64,000 nt of DNA from Streptomyces adustus (GTDB taxonomy: Bacteria; Actinomycetota; Actinomycetes; Streptomycetales; Streptomycetaceae), in NCBI RefSeq assembly GCF_009377175.1, contig NZ_VJZD01000004.1, forward strand, positions 44,964-108,963. Direction: 5' to 3'. Below, in pieces: positions 5,272 to 52,462 of the stretch (its first letter is position 1; each line of letters starts with the position of its first letter). The notes beneath the pieces are model-generated. The model was not told where the DNA came from and did not search any database. It saw nothing but the letters and a program-made list of their open reading frames with translations. Position numbers and translations under genes: made by a program.

Positions 5272-8200
5272 TCACTTGAGGCCGAAGGCCCGTATGACCG
5301 TCTGGGTGACGCCGCCGCCGTTGCGCTGCTTGACGGTGACGCGGATGGACACGTACCTGGACCGGTGCGGTGCACTCAGCTTCGCCAGCCAGGAGCCCGT
5401 GCTGCCCTTCAGGCTCTGACGCGTCCAGGTTCGCCCATCGTCGTAGGAGACCTCGAGTCCCAGTGACGAGACCGCGTCCTTGGCGGAGGAACTGCCCAGT
5501 ACGCCGGGTGTGATGGACAGGTCCGTCTTGCGTCCGGCTCGGCCGTCGGCGTCCAGGTCCGTACTGTAGTCCAGCTGGACCAGCGGAACGGCCTGTATGT
5601 CGGTGGCAGCCCCGGAGGTGAAGTTCCACTCCGTGCGGGTCGTCTCGGAGTACGGGCTGACGGCGGTGTTGCCCTTCGTCTCCACGACCATCCGGTACGG
5701 CAGTTGCCGCGGGTCCAGCTCGCCGGTGCCGATCTGCGGGCCGCCCTCGAACCGGGACAGCAGGTTGTCTCCCTGATAGAGCGAGACCGTCTGGGACGCG
5801 CCGGCCATACCGCCGCTGTGCGCGGCTCCGGCATCGCCGAACGCCTCGACATAGCCGCTGAAGCCCACCGAACCGCGGTAGAGAATGTTCCTGTCGAGCA
5901 GGCGTGGCCTCGTGATGGGTCCGAACCAGCGGTCCTTCTGGACCGTACCCGGCTGATAGGCCACCGGGTCGGTGGACGCGTTGCTGATCCCCACGAGAGC
6001 CCCGTACTGCTGCCATTTGAGGCCGTTTCCAGTGGAGACCCAGTCGATGCGCCGGCCGGGAGCGACCGGCTCGGCGGACAGCGCGGGCGCCGCGGTTCCC
6101 GGCCATTCGTACGGAGGGAAGTCCACCCGCTTCTCGACGGCCTGCGTGCCCGCGGGCGAAGCGAAGGCGAGGTCGATCCGGGCGAGCTTGCGAGGGTCCG
6201 TGTTCGCCGAGGGGTCATCGGGGATTCCGCCGACGTGATAGTCGGCCAGGTCGTACAGGTACTTGGCCGAGGGGTGGGCCTCGACCGCCAGCCGTACCCC
6301 GTCGTGGCCCGCCGCGGCGAGCTTCTTGACCAGTGCCTCGCCCTCGTCCAGGGCCAGCGAAGCGACCGGAAGCGACCCGGTGGTCACCATGTCGGGGTCG
6401 CCGTACCAGTCACTCTTCCGGCCGAGACCTTCGTTGACCACCAGGAGCACGGCCGCGCCGGCCGCCTTCGCCGCCGCCGCCTGATCCATGGGAGCCACGG
6501 TGTCGCTGCTGCGCACCACCACGGCCTTGCCACGGGCGGAGACGCGGGCGTACTCGGCGGCTGAGCCGGTACCGGCGAAGACGGTACCCAGGTGGGTGGT
6601 GCCGTCCGGCAGCGCCTTGGAACCAGGCTGCGCGAGTACGTCGTCCAGGCGGTGACCGCCGTAGGTGACCGCCAGCGGCGTCTGCTCCGCGCGAATCCTG
6701 GTGCTGAAGACGAAACTGCCCTTCCTCACCTTGCCCTTGGTCGGCACGGCCCACAGGCTGTCGTATTGGGCGGAGGGGAACTCGACGTCGAACAGGGCCC
6801 CCCAGTCGGGTGTGGGCTCGGTCGACGTCCAGTTGCGGTAGAGGTCGATCCGGCTGCTCACGACGCTGGTCGGCTTGGGTGTCGCAACCTTCACCTGGCG
6901 TGCCCTCGAGGCATCGAGTTCCACGGTCCGGTCGGCCGCCAGCTCGACTTCGGGCGCGGTCAGCACCGCGTAGCCCAGGGAGTGGGGGCCATGCAGACCT
7001 TCCACGTCGGCGAAGGAGTAGAGCATGTAGGAGCCGGGAGCCAGCCGGCGGGTGGCCGTTCCGTCCGAGGGGACGTCCACGAACACGTCGTTCCCGTCGG
7101 AACTCCTGATGTCGACGTACCCCGTCATGGGCCGGCCGGCACGATCCTTGAGGTGGATCGTGAGCGCGTATTTCTCCGACTCGACGGAGAACCCCGCGGC
7201 CGTGTGTATCTGGCCTCCGTCGAAACCGGCCGTGACCTGTGCGGAGTACTGGCCCGCAGCGAGCTCCCCCGGGTCCGCCACCAAGTCGGCCTGCGCGGTT
7301 CCGTTCGCGGGTACGGTGAGGTGGTCGGTGCCGAGGGTGAATGCCTTCGCGGGCGAGCCGCCCGGGTCGACGGACAGGTGCAGGACGACCGGGGTGTCCG
7401 TGGTGTTGGTGTACGTGATCTGCCGCCGTATCGGCTGCCGTTGCGTCGTGGGCGACCACGTGACGAGCCCCGCGTCGACCGATCCGGTCGCGAACACCTT
7501 CGCGTAGTACGCACTGGCCACGTTCACCCGGCCGGCGCCCGCCTGGTAGGGGGTGTAGTCCGGGGTCGGATTGCTGGTGCTCATCAGAGCGTCCTTCAGC
7601 TGCTGAGCGGTCCAGTCCGGGTGTCTCTGGGCCAGCAGGACGGCCGCACCCGCCACGTGGGGTGTCGCCATGGAGGTACCGCTGTCCACGCGGTAGTAGC
7701 CTTCCCCGTCGCTCATGTACTGCGAGCGCGCCGCCAGTACGTCGACACCGGGAGCGGTGACGTCCGGCTTGAGACCGTCGTCACCCGCCCGCGGACCGAC
7801 GCTGGAGAACGAGGCGAGGTGGTCGGAGCCGTCCACCGCCCCGACGGTGAGCGCGGCTTCCGCGGTCCCCGGCGCGCCGAGGGTGTAGGGGCCCTGATTC
7901 CCATCGTTGCCCGCGGCGATGACGAAGAGCGCGCCCGTCTCGGCGGTGAGCTGGTTGACTGCCTGGCTCAGCGGATTGTCCTGGCTGTTCCGGACCGAAC
8001 TGCCGAGGCTCATGCTGATCACCTTGGCGTGCTCGGTCCGGGCCGCCCACTCCATGCCGCTGATGATCCAGGAGTCCTGGCCGGAGTTCTGGTTGCTGAG
8101 GACCTTCCCCACCAGCAGGTCGGCCCCGGGAGCGACTCCCTTCTCCTTCCCGCCCGAGGCGGCGCCCGTACCCGCGATGGTGGAGGCGGTGTGTGTCCCG

Positions 8201-9087: not shown

Positions 9088-10132
9088 ATTATCTCCGGAG
9101 CCGGGGATTATCTGAATCTGAATCACCTTTGAGGCATCATGGAAAGGCAACGCGTTTTGCCGATCGGGGTCCGTAGAATTCGTTGGTCAACTACGGTGAA
9201 GGGCACACTAAGAAGGCCTCGTTGCCGGGATGTAACATCCGCGATTCCAATCAACACCCTTGGCACGCATAAGCAGAGGCATCGTCAGTTTCGAAATATT
9301 TCGACGAATTGTGCCAGCTGTTCTCCGCGTCGGGCTTCTCCGTGCCGCGCGAGTTTTGTTCCGCAGCGAAGACCGCGGTCCCCCAGACGATGGGGAGCAG
9401 GCGGACCAGAGTGCGCAGCGTCATGCCGCGGGCCAATTCACCTTTTCTGCAGGCCGATCGGCCAAGTTTCCGCTGCTCCAGCACGAAGCCGGTGCCGTCG
9501 AGGGTCAGCACATCCCACGGCATGCCGAGTTGGTCTGCGACGTACGCAGGGGAGCGTCACGCAGGCCGTCAGTGTCACGTCGACCGTGGGCGGGCAGGCG
9601 CTCCAGGCCGCAGGGACCGCGCCGTGTTCGGACTGTCAACGCGGCCGCCACCGGCGCTCCAGAGTGCGGGACGATATCGGTCAAGGTCACCGACGACGCG
9701 GATGAGCTGGTCGATGGGCTCACCGCGTGGACACCCGTGCGCCTATGGATCCTGTGGGCCGAACACGTCCCGCTGTGCCCGACCGACCCAGCCAGGAACC
9801 GCACCCACTGCACACGGCGGCGGCCGGCTGATCCGGCATCCCCGTCTCCTCAGTGTCCCGCTCTGCGCCCAGGCCGGGTACGCCCTGTCCCGACTCACGA
9901 TCCGATTCCCCGATATATGCGATAAGACGCTAGTTGGCCCGGTACGTTGAGTAGCAGTCTCCCTGGACGCCACGTCCCCCCGTGCGCTGCGTCCAGGGGC
10001 ATACTCCCCCCGGTCCGACCTGATCACCGGCCGCCGCCCGTCCCGCCACGACATACACGGCCCTCGACCGCGCGCTTCGCCAGAACGACTCACCTTCCGC
10101 GAGATGGCCATCGGCGGATACGACTCCACGTC
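9088..10132. other. Long non-coding or decayed stretch upstream of the subtilase
   Basis: About 1 kb including the subtilase promoter region. A perfect 14-base palindrome lies at 9291-9304. On the minus strand 9330-9560 reads as a plausible protein fragment (VADQLGMPWDVLTLDGTGF, then RGMTLRTLVRLLPIVWG), but I do not recognise the family and the frame is short. The rest shows no convincing gene. Confidence 0.4.
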
Positions 10133-10453
10133 ATGGTCCGGCCACTATCCTGGTGGCCAGCGGGATTGAGCGAGCCACATGAAACGAACGCGCCTGTCGA
10201 ACTGGTTGACGCGATGCTTCACCGGTTCGACCTGGAACTGTCCTCGGCCTCGGTGTCCCCACTGTTCGCCAAGGAGCCCTCGCAGGTGAAAATGACCACG
10301 CCGGCCGCGTTGTGCACCACGCTGGAATGCACCCCCAACGACCTGATCGACGTCGACACCACCCCTGTCGCACGACCGATCGCCCCCTCTCGCCCGGTCG
10401 CCGACCTCCCGCAGGCTGCCTCCGCTCGGGGCCGGTCGATGCCGCCCCTGTGA
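10133..10453 (+). CDS. Small XRE-like helix-turn-helix regulator
   Basis: 106 residues from ATG 10133. Seen: the tail of a Cro/C1-type HTH with PAALCTTLECTPNDLIDVD, matching the 'LAALCDxLxCTPNDLI' block of short Streptomyces XRE regulators, and an ending RGRSMPPL typical of that group. Such genes often sit beside a CxxC-rich protein and a tyrosine recombinase on mobile DNA. The CxxC-rich partner follows but is broken, and no recombinase is present. The N-terminal helices are degenerate compared with what I remember of the family, so it may no longer be functional. Confidence 0.5.
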   Translation: MVRPLSWWPAGLSEPHETNAPVELVDAMLHRFDLELSSASVSPLFAKEPSQVKMTTPAALCTTLECTPNDLIDVDTTPVARPIAPSRPVADLPQAASARGRSMPPL

Positions 10454-10465
10454 CGGCAGGTCACG

Positions 10466-11082
10466 ATGGACACGGAGCAACGGGCCTGCGTCACCCGCGG
10501 CAGGCCGGTCGGACATCATTACCGCCAGCACTGCTGCCTGTGCTGGCGCCGCATGGAGGAGCAGGCCGCCAGGGCCCCTTGTCCCTCCTGCGGTCGCGAC
10601 CGAGTGCTGCAAGACGACACCGGCCGGTGCGCCATCTGCTCGCTCGTCTGCACGGAGTGCGGTCATCCGGTCCGCTCACCACAGAACCAGCTGTGCCGGG
10701 ACTGCCGACACAGGGTCGGCCAGCTGGCCGGACAGCGGACGTGTCCGCGCTGCCAAAGGCCCGGCTATCTGCGCGAGGCGACCGGCTGGTGCGGTCACTG
10801 TCCACGCCCCGGCAGGGGAAGAACCCGCCGAGAATCCGCCGCGAGTGCGGGCAGCTGCGGCGGCACGCCGGCCTCCGCCTGTGCTCGGCTTGCCGGGCGG
10901 TCGTCGAGCAGGACGAAACCCTGTGGAGCGCCATCGTGCGGTTCTACCGCACCGCCAGTCCCTGGAAGAACGGGTGTCCTTTCAATGACCCCTCCCTGAG
11001 GGCCGCTTACCGCAGGGCGCTGGACGACTGCATCGCCGAGCGGCAGGAGTTCACCACCGCCGCCCAGGCCGATCTGGGCTGA
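10466..11082 (+). pseudogene. CxxC-rich zinc-ribbon protein, frameshifted
   Basis: The first frame (to about 10810) carries repeated Cys pairs: CCLCWRR, CPSCGRD, CAICSLVCTEC, CRDC, CPRCQRP and CGHC, which look like several zinc ribbons. After REATGWCGHC the homologous continuation (PPRI..ECGQLRRHAGLRLCSAC) is found only in the +2 frame, running to 11082. A single-base indel near 10800-10815 therefore splits the gene. The last 60 residues do not match the usual ending I recall, so the 3' end may be recombined. Together with the upstream regulator it is probably a remnant of an integrative element. Confidence 0.55.
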
Positions 11083-49084: not shown

Positions 49085-49417
49085 CTATCCCTCGTGCCAG
49101 AAGTTGCTCTCGGTTCCGTACGTCGAGACCGTGAAGGTGCCGGTGTTGTATTCGGTACCGATTTCCTTGACTCCGTCCCAGAAGGCGGCGTACACGGTCA
49201 CAGTGGTGTGCGCGGCCGACGAGGAGGCGCACTTTCCGGGCTCGGCCCAGATGTACGTGCTCGAATTGACCCGAATGCCGGATGTATAGTCCCCGCGCGC
49301 ACAGATCGTGACGGTGCCACTGGCCGTGCTCGCGGACGCAGCACCTCCACCCGCGACAACGAGAGCAGCGGCGATTCCCGCGCCCGCCACGGTCTTCTTG
49401 ATTCGTGCCGACAACAT
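49085..49417 (-). CDS. Small secreted protein of unknown function
   Basis: 110 residues from ATG 49417, with AGGAG upstream. A clear signal peptide (KK, then AGAGIAAALVVAGGGAASAS) cleaved near residue 30 leaves an 80-residue mature domain, Thr/Ser/Tyr-rich, with two cysteines (CARG and GKCASS) that could form a disulfide. Predicted beta-rich. No family recognised. It has its own promoter region and a strong terminator, so it is probably expressed alone. Confidence 0.75.
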   Translation of the reverse strand: MLSARIKKTVAGAGIAAALVVAGGGAASASTASGTVTICARGDYTSGIRVNSSTYIWAEPGKCASSSAAHTTVTVYAAFWDGVKEIGTEYNTGTFTVSTYGTESNFWHEG

Positions 49418-49910
49418 GAGGTGAAACTCTCCTAATGTACGTGATGTGCGAGCCGGCCGTCATGAGACGTGCCCTGCCTGGCGCGGAAATCGGAAACGAT
49501 GAAATCGCCATTTCGGAATGGTAGATGCATCGTTGCGCACCAATTCCCGGTGGGGCGCCACCCGGCCTGCCCGGAATTTGCGACGATTAATGATCACCAT
49601 GGTGTGTCGTGGGATGTCAAGCCAGAGAACAAGCCACCTCAAATTGCGCCACCCGCGTGCCAGAAATGTGTTGCAGGGTCTTCGGAGATTGTTCGAGGGT
49701 ACAGTTGTGCAGTGCAATTCACGTTCACTTCACTCTCTCTGCGCATCTGCCCGTCTGCGTGATTTCCCCCTGTCGAGACATCCGTGTCTCCCCTGGTCAC
49801 TGACGGCCTTCAGTCCGCTGGGCTGCGGCCTTCTCGTCCAGTCCTGCCTTCAAGAGGAATGATCAACAAGGGTGGATCCTGGGGCATCAACATTCGGAGG
49901 ATCCTTCGAG

Positions 49911-50003
49911 ATGCTCAAGGTTTTTGGCGAAAGACGAGCCTGGTGGCAATGTGTAAAGACTTCACCGAATCGAAGTAGCCCCTTGACGGGCGGGCCGGCG
50001 TGA
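49911..50003 (+). CDS. Possible 30-residue peptide upstream of the RiPP-like precursor
   Basis: GGAGG nine bases before ATG opens 30 codons: MLKVFGERRAWWQC, then VKTSPNRSSPLTGGPA. It has adjacent tryptophans near the middle but shares no leader with the 50095 peptide. It may be a chance frame or a regulatory leader peptide. Nothing shows that it is made. Confidence 0.25.
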   Translation: MLKVFGERRAWWQCVKTSPNRSSPLTGGPA

Positions 50004-50012
50004 AGATTGAAT
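49983..50012 (+). promoter_or_regulatory. Likely promoter of the peptide-P450 pair
   Basis: TTGACG (49983-49988) with an 18-base spacer to TTGAAT (50007-50012), about 85 bases before the peptide start. It fits a vegetative-type promoter; approximate only. Confidence 0.4.
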
Positions 50013-50094
50013 CCCTTCTTGTCACGGGGTGGCCGAGAAGAATCGGTTCGACATCCGTGAGAGTTTTCAATCCCGTTGCAATGGAGGTGCACAG

Positions 50095-50172
50095 ATGGCT
50101 CTCGTCCGTCTCGTCAAGAAGGCCATGCCCGAGAAGAGCCTCAAGGCTTACGCCTGGTACGGCTGGATCTGA
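50095..50172 (+). CDS. Atropopeptide-like RiPP precursor peptide
   Basis: 25 codons. ATG 50095 has GGAGG seven bases upstream, one of the best ribosome sites in the window. The leader MALVRLVKKAMPEKSLKAY is basic and amphipathic; the C-terminus is AWYGWI, directly before the stop, so no follower. As I recall it, tryptorubin A, the founding atropopeptide, is Ala-Trp-Tyr-Ile-Trp-Tyr, cross-linked between Trp/Tyr residues by one P450. This core keeps Ala-Trp-Tyr-x-Trp, with Gly for Ile and Ile for the last Tyr. A P450 gene starts 7 bases after the stop, the minimal atropopeptide pair. The product should be a P450-cross-linked short peptide; maturation and export genes are not adjacent. Confidence 0.8.
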   Translation: MALVRLVKKAMPEKSLKAYAWYGWI

Positions 50173-50179
50173 TTTCGGT

Positions 50180-51295
50180 ATGACTCGTGGCCCGCGTTCG
50201 ACTCGGAATACCGAGGTCGGCGCGGGCCGCCTCATTGATGGAGTTCACGTGACGGTGGTTCATACGGACGGCAGGAAGCGGTTCACGCAGTTCGCCCCGC
50301 GCATGGCCAACCTGCTGCAGGAGCACACAGGTGACGCGCTATTCCGGCTGGAATCCGACACGATCGGCGTTGCCGACCCCGAGCTGCTCGACGCTCTGCT
50401 GCGCGCCAGGCCGGCGAACGCCGAGGAACGACCGACGTTCAAGCCGGTGCGCGGCAGAACGGTTCCCAGGTCGGACGCCTCGACCTATATGCAGGCGGTC
50501 GGGGCGGACGTGCGCACCGCGTTGAAGAAGCCCGTCGACGACACCGTCGACCTGACGGGAATCTGGCCGAAGGTGCCGCACGACTACCTGCACCGCCTCG
50601 TGTTCGGCGACATGCAACTGCGCTTCAGGACCCTGGTCGACCGCCGGCTGGAGCTCACCCCCAAGCTCACGTGGTCCGCGGTGACCGCCGGAGCCGCTCT
50701 CCTGGGGAAGCCGCGCAAGGACACGTCCATGTCCAGCCTGGCGAATCTCGTGCTGAGCGCCGAGTCGTACGACGACAGGCGCTATGCGATGTATCTGTAC
50801 CGGCGCGTCGCCGCACCTGTCTGTTTCACCGTCGCCGCGCTCGTCACGAACGCTGTTTGGCTCGGCGCCCCGTTCCGTGAGGACGTGTCCAACCGGGAGA
50901 TCATCTGGGAGTCCCTGCGGCTGCTGCCGGTGTCCTGGAACATCCTGCGCATGGCCTCTCCGGAATTCGGTGCGGTCGACCGGCGGATTGGAGATGGCGA
51001 CGACGTTCTGCTGCTGCCCATCCTCAGCCACCGCGACCCCAAGCTCTGGGACGATCCGAACGAGTTTATCCCCGAACGCTGGCGGGAGCTCGACCCGGAG
51101 AGTCATCCCGGGTACCTGCCCTTCGGGCATTCCGACGAGCGCTGCTGGGGACGCCACATGGTTCTCCCTCTCGCCGAGCGCCTGCTGGACGTCGTGCGCC
51201 GGGACGGCCTGACCGTGAGCCCCGAGCAGACCGTCGGCCGCGTCGAGTTGGACGGTCTCCTCGAGATCGCCCGGGTGCGCGTGACCCGTGCTTGA
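50180..51295 (+). CDS. Cytochrome P450, predicted peptide cross-linking enzyme
   Basis: 371 residues from ATG 50180, 7 bases after the precursor stop, so co-translated. Seen: K-helix ExxR as ESLR (Glu244, Arg247), FIPERW before the heme loop, and the heme loop PFGHSDERCWG with the iron-ligand Cys322. The likely I-helix (VAAPVCFTVAALVTNA, about 210-225) lacks the usual acid-Thr pair: Cys215 and Phe216 stand where Glu/Asp-Thr is expected. Family knowledge: in atropopeptide clusters one P450 installs all C-C and C-N bridges. Its length is near the lower end for bacterial P450s. Redox partners are not encoded nearby. Confidence 0.85.
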   Translation: MTRGPRSTRNTEVGAGRLIDGVHVTVVHTDGRKRFTQFAPRMANLLQEHTGDALFRLESDTIGVADPELLDALLRARPANAEERPTFKPVRGRTVPRSDASTYMQAVGADVRTALKKPVDDTVDLTGIWPKVPHDYLHRLVFGDMQLRFRTLVDRRLELTPKLTWSAVTAGAALLGKPRKDTSMSSLANLVLSAESYDDRRYAMYLYRRVAAPVCFTVAALVTNAVWLGAPFREDVSNREIIWESLRLLPVSWNILRMASPEFGAVDRRIGDGDDVLLLPILSHRDPKLWDDPNEFIPERWRELDPESHPGYLPFGHSDERCWGRHMVLPLAERLLDVVRRDGLTVSPEQTVGRVELDGLLEIARVRVTRA

Positions 51296-51508
51296 GGGGC
51301 ACAAGTGAGCCAATCGCGGCGCGGAAGAAGGTGAGGTGTCCACCGGATGCCGACCGGTGCCTCGCCGACAGACCATGACTCGTGCCGAAGTCCCGCCGCT
51401 CACTGGAAGGCGTGCAGCGACAGTCACCACCTCGGCTGACGGGCTCCGCGCCAGTACGGACCCTGGCCCCCCGAGGGTCCGTACCGATGCGGGCGACTCT
51501 CGCCGAAC
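51296..51508. other. Spacer after the P450 gene
   Basis: 213 bases between convergent genes. An imperfect repeat around GGACCCT/AGGGTCC (51461-51482) may terminate transcription. No gene seen. Confidence 0.4.
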
Positions 51509-51667
51509 TCAACGGCCTTGGTTCCGCCGGACGTTGTTGTAGATGCGCAGAAGGTGCTTGGCGGCCGGGCAGGCGACGCCGTTGTGCCCACACTGTCGAC
51601 AGGTGCGCATGTGACTGTCGTAGGTGGCGCGCGCCTGCTCGATGGATGGGTCCTGCGAAGAGGTCAT
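51509..51667 (-). CDS. 52-residue protein with a Cys/His motif
   Basis: ATG 51667 has GAGGACC just upstream. The protein reads SIEQARATYDSHMRTCRQCG, then HNGVACPAAKHLLRIYNNV: a His-x3-Cys-x2-Cys-x5-Cys spacing that could bind a metal. Short proteins with this layout are common and uncharacterised in Streptomyces. It is convergent with the P450 gene; no functional link is shown. Confidence 0.6.
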   Translation of the reverse strand: MTSSQDPSIEQARATYDSHMRTCRQCGHNGVACPAAKHLLRIYNNVRRNQGR

Positions 51668-52462
51668 GACGGTCCTCGTGCTCGAGGGAAGGGGATACAA
51701 GAAAAGATGATGATCTTGTTACTTGCGGTAGTGGAAGCGCATTCCACAGGATCATGAGCGAGCGGAGGTTCGCGCCGCATCGGGCTGAGGAGCGGGCGGG
51801 CCCTGATGGTCCCTTCGGCAGTGGGCCGACAGGGGGTACGCGGGTGTCGAGTTGACCGGTTGAAAGCGGCGCACGACAGGTGGCTGGGCGAGTGAATGCG
51901 CAGCCTGCCCTGCGGATGGCCTCGCGCCGAGCGCCTCCCGCCGCGCAACTCGGGGCTGAGCCGCAGACAGCGGAGGAACTGCGCGCTGTTCACCCGGAAG
52001 AGGATCGCCGCCCGACACCGCACCGGCCCGCGGAGTTCAGGTCATCAAGGCTGCAGGCGCCCCCGGTGGCTGTTTACGGCTCCAGGTGCCCGGACGCCTC
52101 CGAGTGCCCCTCGGGCCTGTCCGCTCGACCCAGTTCCCTGAGCATGTGCACCGCAGCGGAGTTCCTTCCCACGGTCGACCTGTGGCCCGGGGTTGTGCCG
52201 CCGGTGCCGTAGCGGTCGGTGTGTGGAGGAGGCCGGGGGCGGGGGAGTCGGCATGGCGGGTCCTGTTCCGGGTGGCGCGTACCGGTCGCCCGTACAGGAT
52301 GCTCGAAAAATAGAACGCACATTCGAAATATGGCGTTGGGGAGCGCCGGGTACAAGGCGGGACGGGCGGCGGAAGATGTCCGCACCTATGCCCCGAGTCG
52401 GCGCAGCGCCTGTGGGCCCACTGGATCGGTGGGCCCCGCAGGCATGTCTCGGCGAGGTGCTG
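51668..52462. other. Gene-free stretch
   Basis: About 800 bases upstream of the 52-residue protein gene and downstream of the Gfo/Idh/MocA gene. An AT-rich patch at 52300-52335 may be a promoter. Nothing else is recognised. Confidence 0.4.

Follow-up and report, generated by a model that had tools for sequence, protein, structure and literature searches.

A two-gene atropopeptide locus with a widespread AWYGWI core in Streptomyces adustus

The precursor and P450 genes

The window, a stretch of 64,000 nucleotides from Streptomyces adustus, carries on its forward strand a short precursor gene and a cytochrome P450 gene with a predicted RNA hairpin between them. The precursor gene (50095..50172) has 25 codons, from the ATG at 50095 to the stop codon at 50170-50172, and its product, MALVRLVKKAMPEKSLKAYAWYGWI, bears a KSLK motif at residues 14-17 (50134-50145) and ends in the predicted core AWYGWI (50152-50169). 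A GGAGG ribosome-binding site lies at 50083..50087, 7 bases upstream of the ATG, and purine-rich sites, mostly GGAGG, stand at like spacing ahead of the precursor in the 25 loci with WYGW or WYQW cores. The coordinates, translation and spacing bear out a preliminary description of a 25-codon gene with a well-placed GGAGG.

The NCBIfam model for tryptorubin-family RiPP precursors, NF038372, matches MALVRLVKKAMPEKSLKAYAWYGWI over its whole length at 44.1 bits, with a curated cut-off of 33. The same model is over its cut-off in 42 of 392 sampled genomes of the genus (44 at E <=0.001), matches in 2 of 396 phylum-wide genomes, both from the window's genus and one of them the window's own, and matches in none of 14 control genomes; the window's own genome holds a single copy of the precursor. 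Since NCBIfam has this model and antiSMASH 8.0 names an atropopeptide rule, the expectation that such a gene is likely to be missing from public annotations finds no support. Across the last 12 precursor codons of 25 homologues (3600 codon comparisons), pairwise differences number 259, 72 and 710 at codon positions 1, 2 and 3, a pattern that reads as strongly protein-conserving, and KSLK is kept in 24 of the 25 WYGW/WYQW precursors, with RSLK in the remaining one.

A contig scan with alignment A1 confirmed 122 loci, and the locus counts given here rest on the 80 of these that were listed. A single pattern picks out a KSLK-type precursor with a core Trp ahead of the P450 in 75 of the 80; four more have close variants, and the last, L027, is broken. 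Judged by its sequence and that of its relatives, the short precursor gene is real: the notion of a chance reading frame beside an unrelated P450, for which nothing speaks except that the gene is short, is already refuted by the family model, the 0 of 14 controls, the homologous precursors that precede the P450 at 79 of the 80 listed loci and the protein-conserving codon pattern.

The P450 gene (50249..51295) encodes 348 residues from a GTG, with a Pfam p450 match of 53.6 bits. Its ExxR (50909-50920), PxRW and haem Cys (Cys299, codon 51143-51145) are each invariant in all 86 P450 rows compared, and a GGAG at 50240..50243 is the likely ribosome-binding site, relatives having GGAG-like sites in the equivalent position. 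At the I-helix position where most P450s have an acid-alcohol pair, the window P450 has the stretch AAPVCFT. No other close P450 is encoded in the window's genome, where the next five matches reach only 27-38% identity over fewer than 100 residues. Fold searches returned general P450s (CYP51, CYP46A1, BM3, EryK and others) and no named RiPP P450 among the best 50 of each, a result that tells nothing against the class, and the best match of a PDB sequence search, among the best 60 of 191 matches, is 9ulw (53.5 bits), described only as a cytochrome P450.

Where this gene starts bears on how the space between the two genes is read. The P450 had been described as beginning 7 bases past the precursor stop, and an ATG does exist there, at 50180, but alignment A1 and the gap lengths favour a GTG at 50249. 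The N-terminal stretch added by the ATG, giving a 371-residue form, is matched by nothing in 19 of the 20 other alignment A1 proteins (the exception, P0119, has two residues there), and the resulting gap falls outside the family range; this start was therefore rejected. With script-picked starts, the gap measures 58-86 bases in 23 of the 25 WYGW/WYQW loci, 136 in L012 and 135 in L017. For the window itself the scripted choice, by a tie-break, took the GTG at 50255, with a gap of 82 bases. The GTG at 50249, which leaves a gap of 76 bases after the precursor stop, appears from the alignment to be the most likely start because it lies 14 residues ahead of the conserved FAPR, the same length as in P0004 and P0022. 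The database copy of the window P450 (P0003, window 50255-51295) has 330 residues, and with that length its start was probably called too far downstream; from the length and a coverage of 89%, this version would begin at about Met42 of the 371-residue form and lose the conserved FAP, and it too was set aside.

Beyond these two genes, little recurs. ORFs of at least 90 residues were compared across the flanks of the 25 WYGW/WYQW loci, with 8-10 kb on each side for the window, mostly 6 kb for 22 loci and about 1.5 kb for two. The precursor and the P450 are the sole genes common to all 25; the widely recurring ORFs are the P450 frame and its shadow frames, and any flanking group is found in at most 7 loci. 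Published atropopeptide clusters are likewise two-gene, with release of the core by host peptidases proposed for tryptorubin (PMC11450843). The window neighbours, by Pfam, are a disulphide oxidoreductase, a SnoaL-like protein, a short-chain dehydrogenase, two HxlR regulators, a GFO/IDH/MocA protein and a zinc-type alcohol dehydrogenase, and a small neighbouring frame at 49085-49414 has no Pfam match.

Class membership and distribution of the core

Atropopeptides have been defined by a class P450, a KSLK leader motif and a Trp at core position 2 (PMC11450843). All three are found at the window locus, the class of the P450 being judged from its placement in a maximum-likelihood tree of 86 P450 rows. 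There it falls in a clade supported at 100/100 that comprises 26 rows: 24 WYGW rows, the window included, together with L027 and L016. Because it sits on a long terminal branch (0.37) and its closest grouping is supported at just 87/67, its exact position inside the clade is unsure. On contig NZ_JOBF01000044.1 the L016 precursor is calculated to lie at base 9377, within the published interval of the sva locus of Streptomyces varsoviensis, 9365-10577 (PMC11450843). L016 thus appears to be the sva locus, which would make SvaB the closest characterised enzyme to the window P450. The precursor model, KSLK, the core Trp2 and a P450 clade shared with SvaB together support the initial assignment to the atropopeptide, or tryptorubin-family, class. 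Two outcomes that would have spoken against that assignment did not appear, as the P450 groups in the 86-row tree with P450s of atropopeptide loci rather than with unrelated families and homologous leaders are present beside related P450s at the listed loci.

The core itself is widespread. AWYGWI occurs exactly in 19 of the 80 listed loci (of 122), with nine in Streptomyces, eight in Amycolatopsis and one each in Kitasatospora and Nocardia, and in 7 of the 392 sampled genus genomes, a sample that includes the window's own genome and overlaps the listed loci. These exact copies rule out the earlier proposal that the core is new. Variant cores include AWYGWV (L009), AWYGWL (L022, Saccharothrix) and SWYQWL (L016). 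With 684 putative atropopeptide clusters reported in PMC11450843, the class is already known, and since AWYGWI is paired with related P450s elsewhere among the actinomycetes, the locus counts as a well-founded further member with a widespread core and not as a new kind. A literature search covering running text found no paper printing AWYGWI, WYGWI, WYGW or WYGWL, and AWYGW and WYGW are absent from the main texts of PMC11450843 and PMC12352619.

Several further observations concern the relatives. In L027 (Amycolatopsis echigonensis), a TGA stop replaces the codon of the conserved core Trp2, which all others keep, while the P450 keeps an open frame of 347 codons and the hairpin persists, so that a broken precursor lies beside an open enzyme gene (P450 match at 6001). 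Two genomes each hold two atropopeptide loci of different clades, L011 and L032 in Streptomyces sp. A 4/2 and L127 and L107 in G358; in these, one locus has the core AWYGWI and the other AWYIWY with a leader variant KNLK. P450 relatives less than 60% identical are found on large plasmids (records H1-H18, 16 from Streptomyces clavuligerus and two from Embleya), 4 of the 18 records being typed as mobilizable, and for one plasmid record that carries a relative the gene table, which is incomplete, shows no precursor gene.

Comparison with characterised systems places the locus more closely. The sva locus (SvaA with core SWYQWL, SvaB, and varsorubins B1, B2a and B2b) shares the two-gene layout, the KSLK leader, a Trp-Tyr-x-Trp core without a terminal aromatic residue and a hairpin in the gap, and SvaB belongs to the same 100/100 clade and is 66% identical to the window P450 over the matched part. 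It differs in its core, in having Phe182 where the window has Tyr182, and in possessing a Crp-type palindrome that the window is without. Loci of the tryptorubin A/amyxirubin type (WYxWY and AWYIWW cores) have the same family, leader motif and layout, with a hairpin between the genes in most loci, but they have an aromatic residue 6, a larger residue 4 and Gly182 in their P450s, which lie on the other side of the tree from the window's save for a few Pseudonocardiaceae rows. Scabrirubin (ScaA/ScaB) and other single-bridge bitryptides share the xWxxW core and KSLK leader, whereas scabrirubin has one C-N bridge only; ScaB is not among the 80 listed loci and stands outside the 86-row tree. ApyO, the aminopyruvatide P450, likewise links the aromatic side chains of a ribosomally made peptide, and its model is the best NCBIfam match of the window P450, at 62.4 bits far under the cut-off of 525, but ApyO joins two Tyr in a YLY motif.

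The intergenic hairpin and upstream sites

The gap between the genes is predicted to fold into a hairpin (50187..50230) of -34.5 kcal/mol taken alone, with paired changes in relatives and a predicted effect on transcript balance, and the 83 bases at 50173-50255 fold with z = -3.43. Across the family, the 110 bases past the precursor stop were tested in the 80 listed loci (of 122), and z falls below -2 in 53 of 80 gaps, against 11 of 80 stretches upstream of the precursor, 1 of 80 inside the P450 and 13 of 80 after it. Ordinary same-strand gaps of 45-160 bases on the same contigs fold this well in 16 of 71 cases, compared with 41 of 66 atropopeptide gaps, and gaps before convergent genes do so in 6 of 21. 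Within the WYGW/WYQW set alone, 16 of 25 gaps have z below -2, and several G+C-rich members show the stem with an ordinary z. In a six-row alignment that includes the window, changes on both sides are seen in 7 of 18 pairs, and 87.0% of cells pair, against 79.1% when shuffled and at most 53.7% when slid. A seven-row alignment from another subclade has both-side changes in 6 of 14 pairs, with 97.9% pairing against 85.5%, and an Amycolatopsis group shows such a change in 1 of 12 pairs.

Stem-loops behind one gene of an operon have been reported to set transcript stoichiometry in Clostridium (PMC8219983), and by analogy the atropopeptide hairpin probably leaves more precursor RNA than P450 RNA. 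On another explanation the structure does no more than end transcription of the precursor gene, or simply reflects a high G+C content, and the P450 is expressed from its own promoter. The 16 of 71 and 6 of 21 control gaps that also fold with z below -2, and the nine of 25 WYGW/WYQW loci that fall short of that value, lend this explanation some weight. It is nevertheless rather unlikely, given the enrichment over every control, the compensatory changes in two alignments, and a window stem with no T run after it in a region (49500-51800) where a scan for terminator-like and sigma-70-like sites called neither. Rfam has no match in the same interval at E <=1. A hairpin, terminator or intergenic element of this kind is unmentioned in the main texts of PMC11450843 and PMC12352619, and a literature text search found atropopeptide and hairpin together only inside a reference list.

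Upstream of the precursor, TTGACG at 49983..49988, 112 bases before the ATG, is a candidate -35 element and TTGAAT at 50007-50012 a weak candidate -10, a pair not called by the sigma-70 scan. TTGAC is found upstream of the precursor in 43 of the 80 listed loci (of 122), compared with 16.55 in shuffles. In 18 of the 80 (L007, L008, L010-L017, L024, L038, L039, L042, L059, L102, L109 and L112) it is preceded by 0-2 bases by the palindrome GTG(N)6[GA]NCAC, for which shuffles give 0.0. With a G as the tenth base, 14 of the 18 agree with GTG(N)6GNCAC, which PMC10033298 quotes from Gao et al. 2012 as the strong Crp consensus in S. coelicolor. TTCACT follows exactly 17 bases on in 15 of the 18. The composite of palindrome and TTGAC is found 15 times before a precursor and once elsewhere in 1,911,364 strand-bases of the listed loci with a precursor.

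The WYGW/WYQW set divides by taxonomy, with the composite in 13 of 15 Streptomycetaceae loci, the window and L009 being without it, and in none of 10 loci from other families (Amycolatopsis, Nocardia, Saccharothrix). The best palindrome score in the window between 49501 and 50094 is 0.6 bits, compared with 15.6-21.4 for the sites of the 18 relatives. Because the window keeps TTGACG without the Crp-type palindrome, its regulation may differ from that of its relatives, and the long branch, weak grouping and lack of a Crp-type site suggest that the locus could be poorly expressed.

The predicted product and the choice of core

The best explanation of the locus, with a probability of roughly 0.72, is a minimal two-gene system in which a KSLK-leader AWYGWI precursor and a class P450 make a tryptorubin-like bicycle, with the RNA balance tuned by the hairpin. 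The two genes, their place in the family and the conserved core, hairpin and residue 182 are established by the sequence comparisons, and from these we infer the chemistry, the peptidase step and the role of the hairpin as follows. As in an AlphaFold model published for the tryptorubin enzyme and precursor, the leader probably docks on the P450 with KSLK as its anchor. Three bonds would follow, a C-N bond between Trp2 and Tyr3, a C-C bond between Trp2 and Trp5, and one from Trp5 to a backbone amide, matching those that SvaB makes on SWYQWL. Cleavage by host peptidases encoded outside the locus would free either a hexapeptide, AWYGWI minus 4 H, with a calculated m/z of 791.351, or a pentapeptide, WYGWI minus 4 H, at m/z 720.314, and a single-bridge form (minus 2 H) may accompany it, by analogy with varsorubin B2a. 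The hairpin would probably hold precursor RNA above P450 RNA.

The preliminary description had reasoned that losing the terminal Tyr forces a different pattern of bridges. According to PMC11450843, however, every core residue except the sixth belongs to the bicyclic system, so that loss of Tyr6 by itself leaves the bridges unchanged, and SvaB converts SWYQWL, which has no terminal aromatic residue, to varsorubin B1 with the usual three bonds (C-C Trp-Trp, C-N Trp-Tyr and C-N Trp-amide) as well as to the single-bridge B2a (PMC11450843). A change of pattern forced by the loss of Tyr6 was accordingly rejected. With Trp at core positions 2 and 5, AWYGWI has the second Trp that marks the bitryptides (the xWxxWx subfamily); its residue 4 is Gly where SvaA has Gln. 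The number of bonds follows the enzyme and cannot be read from the core, since ScaB makes only one bond on the SvaA and LauA cores (PMC12352619).

The locus might instead make a simpler bitryptide of the scabrirubin or varsorubin B2a kind, bridged once, between Trp2 and Trp5 (minus 2 H). SvaB itself yields a single-bridge product besides B1 (PMC11450843), 13 of 15 precursors tested with ScaB receive a single C-N bridge (PMC12352619), and residue 182 of the window P450 is unlike that of tryptorubin-type enzymes. This outcome is nonetheless improbable, for SvaB, the apparent closest characterised enzyme, makes the bicycle on the same Trp-Tyr-x-Trp frame (PMC11450843), and ScaB is described as lying near the family root, far from SvaB (PMC12352619).

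Differences among the P450s offer a further view of how enzyme and core may have changed together. Leaving the window aside, twelve P450 columns distinguish 24 WYGW/WYQW rows from the 61 others, with L027 counted among the 61. Residue 182 (codon 50792-50794 in the window) is Tyr in 25 of 25 WYGW rows, counting the broken core of L027, Phe in the sole WYQW row and Gly in all 60 others. It lies in a long helix, 174-206, of an AlphaFold2 model with a mean pLDDT of 87.3, and a bulky P450 side chain at this place accompanies a small core residue 4. As the pattern reflects a single split of the tree, it is a lead and not proof, and a simple size rule is disfavoured because L084 (AWYAWY, with a small residue 4) retains Gly182. 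The window P450 also departs from its clade at residue 122, with Met for Glu, and from two family-wide columns, with His115 and Ile258.

A wider proposal combines these patterns. In it, WYGW/WYQW loci would form a sublineage whose enzyme and core changed together (I-helix residue 182 Tyr with Gly4, Phe with WYQW), so that the pocket is reshaped and the cross-links follow a distinct pattern; the family hairpin would set the ratio of precursor to P450; and the Crp-type -35 site would put many clusters, although not the window's, under Crp control. Taken as a whole, this combination can be advanced only tentatively and is somewhat doubtful.

Several points give the locus a wider bearing. The product of the AWYGWI sublineage appears undescribed, because no paper printing the core was found in the text search, and two genes would suffice for it. 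AWYGWI minus 4 H is C42H46N8O8 (m/z 791.3511), a formula equal to that of varsorubin B1, so that mass alone would misassign the product, a dereplication trap for mass-based searching. The occurrence of Tyr, Phe or Gly at residue 182 provides a handle for a single-residue test of what sets the choice of core. Finally, addition of a ribosome-binding site before svaB brought a roughly 100-fold gain in yield (PMC11450843), and a hairpin that keeps the P450 scarce, if that is its role, would fit this gain.
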